Positions 22,003 through 29,455 of a DNA stretch of 64,000 nt are shown in pieces. Positions within the stretch are counted from its first letter, which is position 1; each line of letters starts with the position of its first letter. Both the position numbers and the translations under genes were made by a program. The notes under the pieces were generated by a model. It worked only from the letters and a program-made list of their open reading frames with translations, had not been told where the DNA came from and did not search any database. Source of the DNA: Parasaccharibacter apium (GTDB lineage Bacteria; Pseudomonadota; Alphaproteobacteria; Acetobacterales; Acetobacteraceae); the NCBI RefSeq assembly GCF_002592045.1, contig NZ_MEJG01000005.1, forward strand, positions 62,001 to 126,000, in the 5' to 3' direction.

Positions 22003-22284
22003 GTGACCACATCAGAAGGATCACTCCTCCGCCCAGACATCGCCTTCTGGCAGCCCATTACATTAGAGAGCAAATATGCCCCTACAAACTGGATACCACC
22101 TGAAAACCACCCCAATAGTCTCACCAACCAAAGCCATCAGCTTATCGGCAAGGCGCCTTGGGATGGCCTATGGCTACCCATCGCCATCCAACATGAAGTC
22201 TCAACAGAAATGCAAGAAGGTAAATGGCACACAACCATCGACTGCATCCGCACCAACCTCGGCCAAAAACCGTCCCTTCGATAG
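22003..22284 (+). pseudogene. Small unrecognised ORF, possibly the 3' part of a broken gene
   Basis: A GTG-started frame of 93 codons encodes a soluble-looking peptide rich in Pro, Thr and Asn, with segments RPDIAFWQPITLESKY and WHTTIDCIRTN. I do not recognise the family. The frame stays open upstream of the GTG for several tens of codons. A second frame just upstream (from about 21913) carries a coherent peptide that ends at the TGA overlapping this start. Base use is A/C-rich on the plus strand, unlike the housekeeping genes around it. It may be a real small gene or a decayed remnant; no promoter or ribosome site is obvious. Confidence 0.35.
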
Positions 22285-22323: not shown

Positions 22324-23382
22324 TCACCATAACCCCTCTTGGGGATTTTGGTTCATATTATCCACATCACAAACCCCATCACCAACACCACTACCACCAC
22401 CACCATTAGGATAGCCCCCAATGGTATAATACCCCTTATTTATCGCATCTACATGATGGGTAATATCTCCCCATTCATACCCCATATTATCCAACAACCC
22501 CCCTACAATAACCGCGCAACGCCAATAACGCCCCTTCTGGGAAAGAACTAAATCTGCCGCATCCTCAGCATGATCCCATCGGACGCCCACTTTCTTCAAC
22601 CTCTTAATCGTCCCCTTCCGGTCCTCCCGAAAAGCCTTCAACAACCGCTCAATCGATGGCGCATAAGGGTCTTCCGCATTCGGGTCTTGATACATCCGCC
22701 CAATATCGCAAACATTCTCCGCTGTTGCAGGAGGACGTTGATTCACAATCTTTATATCTTCAGAGGCAATATCAACACCAGGGGGACGAGACCGCCATAA
22801 AAAGTTAAGCTTATCAAGGCACTCTTTATACCGTCCCTTTTGAGTAGTCACGAGAATGGCCGCACCCTCCGCAATATTCCTTTCCACACCTACCTTAACC
22901 ATCTCTTCAACTATACTAGCTTTATTTTCTTTCAACCTTCTTACTATAAGGAGGTCAGGATCATTCTCCGGGTTATAAGCAGGCTTCGCAGGCGTCTTAT
23001 CCAAAAAGGCCTTGCTGCAAATATGCACCTGTTCAATATCGTAAACAAATCGCCATGACCCAGAATTCGCTAAGCGAATACGCTCCCGCCTATCCTTATC
23101 CGGCGGCCCATCATCAGGGAACTCAGGATACAACGCGTCATACCCGCTCAACAGCAAACTCACATGCTGCGCGCACATAGACTCAGGCTTATACTTCGCC
23201 CCCCACAAAGCCTGCCGCGCTAACGCCGCACTCAAACCCATCCGCTGCAACGCATATTGCTGCTGCGCCGCAACCATCTTCAACCCCTCCTCTATAGGCG
23301 GTATCCCATCAGCACAAACACCCAAACCAGGCACAAAAACAAACGCCGCAAAACACAAAATACCCGCAACAAATCCCCGCAT
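22324..23382 (-). CDS. Secreted protein with three cysteine-containing repeats, unknown function
   Basis: From the ATG at 23382 the protein has 352 residues. Residues 1-24 form a signal peptide. The rest holds three related units at about residues 31-122, 144-226 and 244-340. Each has the plan LK-x-helix-(K)VGV or MGL-xx-AE or LA-xx-A, then QKGRY or AKYKP, one cysteine (C70, C188, C289), and a second cysteine (C122, C225, C338) before an Asn/Pro/Asp-rich linker. The six cysteines suggest one disulfide per unit in the periplasm or outside. A glycine run near 327-330 precedes the C-terminus. I do not recognise the family. A GTG at 23415 would lengthen the leader; GGGGGT lies just before the chosen ATG. 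The neighbouring DNA looks atypical and C-rich. Confidence 0.7.
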   Translation of the reverse strand: MRGFVAGILCFAAFVFVPGLGVCADGIPPIEEGLKMVAAQQQYALQRMGLSAALARQALWGAKYKPESMCAQHVSLLLSGYDALYPEFPDDGPPDKDRRERIRLANSGSWRFVYDIEQVHICSKAFLDKTPAKPAYNPENDPDLLIVRRLKENKASIVEEMVKVGVERNIAEGAAILVTTQKGRYKECLDKLNFLWRSRPPGVDIASEDIKIVNQRPPATAENVCDIGRMYQDPNAEDPYAPSIERLLKAFREDRKGTIKRLKKVGVRWDHAEDAADLVLSQKGRYWRCAVIVGGLLDNMGYEWGDITHHVDAINKGYYTIGGYPNGGGGSGVGDGVCDVDNMNQNPQEGLW

Positions 23383-27380: not shown

Positions 27381-28325
27381 CTAAAAATGTTGCCAGCCTG
27401 TGCGTGAGAAATGCAGGGGCTTTCCTGCATGATTTAACATTCTAACCCCTGCTCCTTTTGATACTTCACCAATCCTTGTAATAGGGACAGCATGAGTAGC
27501 ACAATGTGCTTGAAGGGCGGCTTCCTTTTCTGGGGGGCAGGTAACAAGCAACTCATAATCATCACCACCAAGTAAGATGCGTTCTTTATGATGGCTTAAA
27601 TGCTGTCGCACCGCCGGAGATAGCGGCACTTTATCTTCATATAATGTAATGGCAACGCCCGATTCTTCAGCAAGATGTCCACAATCTTGGATTAACCCAT
27701 CTGATATATCCATAGCAGCACTAACAATCCCATAAAGGGAAAGGCCAATTCGTGGTGTCGGAACACGATAGGCTAGGGTTAATGAGCCATCTTCATCTTT
27801 TAATTGCCCTAAGCGTGCTTGTAATCCAAGAGCCGCCCGACCGAGACTTCCTGTAACCCAAACGCCATCCCCTTCATGACTACCATCTCGTCGAAGAGCT
27901 TCACCCTGGCGTACACTCCCCAAAATCGTAACCCCTAAAACTAAAGGTGAGGGACTGCCCGTTGTATCGCCCCCTAAGAGATGAAATTCGAACTTCTTTT
28001 GATCCTCGGCGAGCCCTGCGGCAAAATCTGTAAACCATGATTCATCATAGTGACGGTTAGGAGGAACACTGACATTCAACATATAACCACGTGGGCGACT
28101 TCCCATAGCCGCAAGATCAGAGAGATTGCAGCGCAAAAGCTTCTGCGCGATAGTCTTGGCGGGGTCATCGGGGAGAAAATGCAGCCCTTCGACCATCGTA
28201 TCGCTAGAGAGGACAAGTTCCTCCCCCGCGGGGAGGTTCATCACAGCGCCATCATTACGCAGCTCCATGGCACCAGCTCCCGCTAAGGGGCGAAAATGCC
28301 GCGCTATGAAATCGAACTCACCCAT
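27381..28325 (-). CDS. thiL: Thiamine-monophosphate kinase
   Basis: ThiL phosphorylates thiamine monophosphate to the active diphosphate. The 314-residue protein shows GEFDFIARHF at the start, the metal-binding SSDTMVEGLHF region, the nucleotide motif LSDLAAMGSRP, and GGDTTGSP with GGDDYEL further on. All are typical of the PurM-like superfamily ThiL. It is just downstream of nusB, a common nrdR-nusB-thiL order, and its ATG lies 12 bases from the restored nusB stop. Confidence 0.95.
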   Translation of the reverse strand: MGEFDFIARHFRPLAGAGAMELRNDGAVMNLPAGEELVLSSDTMVEGLHFLPDDPAKTIAQKLLRCNLSDLAAMGSRPRGYMLNVSVPPNRHYDESWFTDFAAGLAEDQKKFEFHLLGGDTTGSPSPLVLGVTILGSVRQGEALRRDGSHEGDGVWVTGSLGRAALGLQARLGQLKDEDGSLTLAYRVPTPRIGLSLYGIVSAAMDISDGLIQDCGHLAEESGVAITLYEDKVPLSPAVRQHLSHHKERILLGGDDYELLVTCPPEKEAALQAHCATHAVPITRIGEVSKGAGVRMLNHAGKPLHFSRTGWQHF

Positions 28326-28336
28326 AGATTTTGCCT

Positions 28337-28818
28337 CTATGTCGCGCTGTTACCTTCAACTTTTTGACGCGCGAATTTATCTAAAATGCCATTGACCATC
28401 TTCGGCTCATCTCCGTTAAAGAAGCCATGAGCAACATCAAGATATTCATTAATAGCAATTTGAACGGGCAAATCAGCCATCAACTCACCAAGGGCGGCCC
28501 GCAACAAGGCACGGAGACGGGGTCCAGCCGCGCTAAAGGCCAGCTCTCAGGTAATAACCTCACCAGAGCAGCATCAATAGAATCTTGCTTTGCTACAGCC
28601 TGAAGGACAATTTCCTCCAATAAAGGGAGATCAGCATCAGGAATGTGCCCATCCTCAAAACTGCTCTGTGGGGCCCCCTGCCGATAGCGCAGAAACTCTG
28701 CAAGAACGCTCTCCGCATTATTGCCAGTTTGTTCACATTGATACAGGGCCTGCGTCGCGGCCATACGGGCTATGGTACGGCTACGTTTGCGAGAGGAAGT
28801 GCCGGATTCGTTGGTCAT
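28337..28818 (-). pseudogene. nusB: NusB transcription antitermination factor, interrupted by a one-base frameshift
   Basis: NusB with S10 binds boxA RNA for rRNA antitermination. The open frame from 28818 gives a good NusB start through WPLARLDP, then leaves the family and stops after 112 residues at 28480. In the overlapping frame the missing C-terminus is present in full (LRALLRAALGELMADLP to INEYLDVAHGFFNGDEPK, MVNGILDKFARQ), ending at a stop at 28337-28339. Restoring one base near 28513-28521, where a CCCC run lies on the coding strand, joins both into a normal protein of about 160 residues. It may be an assembly error, a real null, or programmed slippage. It overlaps nrdR by 4 bases (ATGA) and precedes thiL. 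Confidence 0.9.
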
Positions 28819-29291
28819 GAGTTTTCCTCAGACGGATTGGAGGGCATATTCATATCGGCAAGAATTTTCGAAAACGCCTCAATTTCTCGAAAGTCCTTAT
28901 ATACACTGGCAAAACGAACATAAGCCACACCATCAAGATGACGAAGGGCTTCCATAGCAAATTCACCAATGCGCTGTGATGGTATTTCTTGATCTCCAGA
29001 AGCTTCTAGCTGACGTACTAATTTGTTGAGCAAATGCTCTTGCTGCACGTCATCGATAGGACGCTTGCGCAAAGCAATACGTATAGAGCGAGCAAGTTTA
29101 TCTCGATCAAAAGGAATACGACGCCCATCAGTTTTAATAACAGTCAGTTCACGCAGTTGGACACGCTCAATCGTTGTAAAGCGTTGGGTACATGCACAAC
29201 AGACACGGCGACGGCGAATAGCCGCACCATCCTCTGTGGAGCGACTATCCTTCACTTGTGTTTCCTGATGTCCACAAAAAGGGCAGTGCAT
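28815..29291 (-). CDS. nrdR: NrdR ribonucleotide reductase repressor
   Basis: NrdR represses ribonucleotide reductase genes in response to dATP and ATP. The true start is the ATG at 29289-29291, giving 158 residues. A zinc ribbon with CPFCGH and CCAC pairs comes first. The ATP-cone domain ([16 protein letters not shown] onward) follows, with the ELTVIK strand. A longer frame to 29345 is not supported by the family. The stop overlaps the nusB start (ATGA), so translational coupling is likely. Confidence 0.96.
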
Positions 29292-29455
29292 AACATATTC
29301 CACGAACAAAACAGCAGGGCCACGCTTGATTGCTTGACCGAACATCCTGCGCAGTTTATCGAAAACAATGGCATTGAGGAATATAAAAGGGTCTTTTTTC
29401 TTTTAATCCTCGGACTCTTTTTCACTCATGCTGTAGGCGTTAGAAGGCGAGAAGT

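Follow-up and report, generated by a model that had tools for sequence, protein, structure and literature searches.

The nusB gene carried by the 64-kb window (the window being the whole stretch of DNA that was analysed) is broken by a one-base frameshift; the ORF listing and Pfam searches placed the gene on the minus strand at 28818-28337. We estimate at about 80% the probability that this gap is an indel introduced into an ordinary nusB gene by sequencing or assembly, and we infer that the cell itself has the base and that only the record lacks it. The organism would then have an ordinary full-length NusB of about 160 amino acids, the assembly would have lost one base of the CC pair at 28516, and the gap in nusB would be one among several small indels splitting conserved genes that are unrelated to one another and in some cases probably essential. 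A mistake in the sequence is the most likely explanation because the gene is whole in relatives and similar one-base breaks are found elsewhere in the assembly. A preliminary description of this DNA had named sequencing or assembly error as the simplest explanation; it is also the best supported one, though not in the homopolymer that had been named.

The first reading frame (28480..28818, minus strand) has 112 codons, ends at a stop at 28480 and matches PF01029 with an E value of 1.2e-8. Residues 1-101 of its product, through the LDPV motif, are NusB and share 100% identity with the intact NusB from the same species; the final 11 residues are out of frame. The last third of the protein lies in an overlapping frame (28337..28522, minus strand), which covers the intact protein from about residue 100 to residue 160 (98% identity by tblastn) and ends at a stop codon at 28339-28337. 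The ORF in this frame, 28507-28337, also matches PF01029 (E value 1.1e-7). Together, the two frames cover positions 2-81 and 86-133 of the 133 positions of the family, and no uninterrupted single nusB frame was found in the window, the break falling after residue 101. The preliminary description was thus right that a one-base frameshift splits nusB, as two frames with a Pfam match on each indicated, and that the remainder of the protein runs to the stop at 28337 in the overlapping frame, where family positions 86-133 were matched; the site that it gave did not hold. It placed the frame loss after LDP, and we place it one residue further, after LDPV, because identity to the intact same-species protein extends over 101 residues.

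The genes on both sides of nusB are undamaged. The upstream neighbour, nrdR (28815..29345, minus strand), is intact and contains the Pfam domains Zn_ribbon_NrdR and ATP-cone; the downstream neighbour (27381..28325, minus strand) is an open frame related to AIR synthase (Pfam AIRS and AIRS_C), a thiL-like gene. A second copy of nusB was looked for and rejected: the sole further PF01029 match in the genome lies inside a 486-aa open frame and was taken as the N-terminal domain of RsmB.

Alignments to the same-species genome and to nine other members of the genus showed that, in the coding sense, GTC-CTC has lost one C from its CC pair and reads GTCTC in the window (28515..28517, minus strand). 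The missing C adjoins 28516 and lies downstream of the CCCC run that had been proposed as the break site (given as the 28518-28521 region). This run in fact occupies 28522-28519 (minus strand), and it is not the site of the loss because it has an identical length in the intact same-species gene. Across the nusB stretch, the two genomes shared 697 of 701 positions, the differences being one gap and three substitutions, of which two lie in nusB.

In the comparison of sister genomes called for in the preliminary description, nusB was unbroken in 10/10 other genomes of the genus, where its open frame has 163-181 codons versus two fragments in the window. Among these genomes, the interruption is therefore confined to the assembly holding the window (G000). 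The same-species genome, Bombella saccharophila TMW 2.2558 (G040), is 99% identical and its nusB is whole, scoring 110.4 bits against a TIGR01951 cut-off of 88.35 bits. A DNA search of 40 relatives matched 13; the DNA comparison used the nine genus members and left out L014-L016, whose three matches were short and lay outside the genus. We also assembled a set of 27 distinct related nusB loci from Bombella, Saccharibacter, Gluconobacter, Neokomagataea and two genomes labelled only Acetobacteraceae, ten being those of the other genus genomes and 17 being additional. The gene was open in 27/27, each encoding one chain, and a valine followed LDP in every one of them. The CCCC run was present within the unbroken gene in eight of the 27, the same-species genome among them.

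Similar breaks were then counted over about 544 kb of the assembly aligned to the same-species genome. The aligned part of the window (54,742 bases) showed 593 mismatches and 8 indels, and the nusB indel was the only one of the 8 in an ORF of at least 100 aa. The other seven fell outside such ORFs, as real evolution predicts, indicating that the error rate is low. Contig C1 (396,667 bases) had 58 indels, of which 35 touch an ORF and 24 of these are not a multiple of three; a good part of these 24 lie at ORF starts or ends and are little informative. Breaks in the middle of genes were found in topA (twice), ispDF (IspF part), cyoB, mltA, a gene for an MdtO-like FUSC protein and an unnamed gene (P0008). 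For a polarised census, 490 ORFs of at least 100 aa were taken from the next relative, Bombella sp. ESL0385 (G009), used as an outgroup, and their state was scored in both genomes: 397 were full in both, 53 were absent in both and 3 were split in both. Eight were split only in the assembly holding the window, namely topA, cyoB, ispDF, nusB and the genes for the MdtO-like FUSC protein, a CDF transporter, an AAA-like ATPase and a 791-aa cyclase-domain protein, versus one split only in the same-species genome. Genes whole in near relatives are thus broken in excess in this assembly (8 vs 1 of 490; two-sided binomial 0.039, from a small sample). The breaks in the CDF transporter and AAA-like ATPase genes, the single case in the same-species genome and all 3 ORFs split in both lie near the N terminus; start choice may explain the first three, and without the N-terminal cases the census stands at 6 versus 0. 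The remaining 28 ORFs were mixed absent or partial cases (16 full only in the same-species genome, 3 the reverse and 9 neither), some of which may be edges of the stretches taken. Two further genes, mltA and P0008, were missed by the census filter; both are split here and whole in the same-species genome and the outgroup.

Three of the split genes, namely topA with its two indels, ispDF and cyoB, are unbroken in 10/10 other genomes of the genus, and a search of the assembly for a second full-length match to each of them returned fragments only. Outside the window, topA (G000:C1:474578-477272) carries two one-base indels seen in this assembly only, and ispDF (G000:C1:376469-377682) is broken inside its IspF part, again in this assembly only. 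On contig C5, from about 25689 (L088, outside the window), the gene for an outgroup 791-aa protein that combines Cache, GAF and adenylate/guanylate cyclase domains is likewise broken in this assembly alone; the split lies near an A run of 7 bases, versus 8 in the sister genome, at C5:26858. IspF and topoisomerase I are generally essential, and a cell lacking IspF should not be viable, as the MEP pathway depends on it. The break in ispDF therefore points to errors of the record, and real breaks in both ispF and topA would be improbable in one living strain. The topA break spares roughly the first 599 residues, and partial function would therefore be possible for topA alone.

The lengths of the longer runs pointed the same way. 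When single-base differences from the same-species genome were summed over contigs C1 and C5, runs of at least four bases were shorter in the window's assembly in 22 cases and longer in 10, which is the bias that homopolymer miscalls would give. Counting against a mistake in the record, the bias was absent in runs of fewer than four (11 shorter, 13 longer), the breaks in the FUSC and AAA-like ATPase genes lie in short runs with substitutions alongside, and cyoB is broken by the gain of a base instead of a loss. With 8-10 genes split only in this assembly in about 544 kb, or about one coding break per 50-70 kb, about one break is expected in a 64-kb window, matching nusB.

The main rival explanation is that the deletion is real and recent, the strain or the sequenced culture carrying a null or truncation allele of nusB. 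We regard this as unlikely, though it deserves to be kept in mind because a nusB frameshift has been reported in Saccharopolyspora erythraea and because E. coli nusB mutants are viable. The gap lies in a CC pair, away from any long homopolymer, and is therefore not the most typical kind of sequencing error, which counts for a real deletion and against a mistake in the record. The precedent, as described in the accessible part of PMC3359211, is a frameshift (-G 316) in an industrial strain. Against a real deletion, the breaks in topA (two), ispF, cyoB and mltA, all whole in the same-species genome, would have to be real as well. The two substitutions downstream of the gap within nusB are, by eye, both synonymous in the intact frame, so the downstream part shows no decay, although so small a number leaves room for a very recent loss. 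A mutator strain as the shared cause of real breaks was considered and set aside: mutS and mutL are open in 11/11 genus genomes, this assembly included, so these two genes give no support for a mismatch-repair mutator. If the deletion were real, a NusB protein without its C-terminal third would be unlikely to bind S10/NusE and boxA; rRNA antitermination would thus be weakened and growth slowed.

Slippage by -1 at the CCCC run, programmed or accidental and by the ribosome or RNA polymerase, appears very improbable as a source of full-length NusB. It could in principle work, since a tRNA paired with the in-frame CCC could move back by one base within C-CCC, which would restore the frame. However, none of the 27 related loci (the 10 other genus genomes among them) needs a slip or has the shifted frame, and this absence of a conserved shift in relatives leaves programmed frameshifting of nusB unsupported. 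The preliminary description had held that a C4 run conserved in relatives with a full-length product would favour slippage; the run does occur in 8/27 loci, unchanged in the same-species genome, but nusB is already open in all eight. A shift at the run would not restore the family sequence, the product reading LDPR in place of LDPV, with arginine where all 27 loci encode valine. The run is also only four bases long and, by eye, the sequence is not an X-XXY-YYZ heptamer. Programmed slippage at this site was therefore rejected, as the intact gene has the same run and the product would misfit the NusB family.

A broader form of the same idea is that the strain truly breaks nusB, topA, ispF and other core genes, and that it nevertheless obtains enough full-length protein because ribosomes or RNA polymerase slip at short runs. 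Rescue of this type has been reported in some endosymbionts of insects whose genomes are reduced; for the present strain we find it scarcely credible. That NusB functions as two halves translated separately, the second from the TTG at 28507, deserves almost no weight: an ORF with this start is present, but no ribosome-binding-like sequence was seen by eye upstream of it, the 27 related loci encode a single chain and the window gene is one base away from intact.

Comparison with the same-species genome also revealed differences elsewhere in the window. The segment 22117-23394, which surrounds an unnamed 363-aa ORF with no Pfam match, is present as a single copy, yet pieces of it match the same-species genome several times nearby with identities of 81-97%; three nearby matches were found for 22956-23382. 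Either the strains differ in copy number here or this assembly has collapsed a repeat. A 93-aa ORF at 22003-22284 (plus strand) resembles, by eye, the last part of a 373-aa ORF that lies close to where contig C1 of the same-species genome begins; as a guess, it is perhaps a phage-tail-like remnant.

A true loss would mean that a bee-associated acetic acid bacterium isolated from nature lives without an intact NusB. Under the preferred explanation, an error in the record, the consequence is practical: any other apparent loss of a single gene in this genome calls for doubt until the reads are seen, because the assembly splits conserved genes by single-base indels.

Compared with known NusB proteins (TIGR01951/PF01029), both halves of the window gene match PF01029 and it sits between nrdR and a thiL-like gene; it differs in lacking one base, the frame being interrupted after residue 101. 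The frame-transition survey PMC3711429, in its accessible portion, gives sequencing errors as the expected source of one category of singletons. It also lists a 'DMRL_synthase / NusB' cluster; on our reading of that portion, this cluster is a gene junction and not a shift inside nusB. Saccharopolyspora erythraea Px, a mutagenised erythromycin overproducer, is presented in the available text of PMC3359211 as having 71 frame-shifting indel sites in coding sequences, nusB among them, and mutations in DNA repair are suggested there as a cause; strains with numerous genuine frameshifts therefore do occur, which counts against the error reading. Its nusB, as far as that text goes, shares with ours a one-base deletion in the later part of the gene, at nucleotide 316 of 148 codons versus about 303 of 160 codons here. 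The Px deletion was found by comparison with the parent strain (PMC3359211, same portion), whereas here the same assembly breaks other conserved genes. Indel errors of draft assemblies, as outlined in the accessible parts of PMC12007338 and of the Polypolish paper (PMC8812927), differ from our case in that the rate in the window's assembly is modest, and share with it the scattered one-base indels, often in homopolymers, that split conserved genes in one assembly and not in its near relatives.
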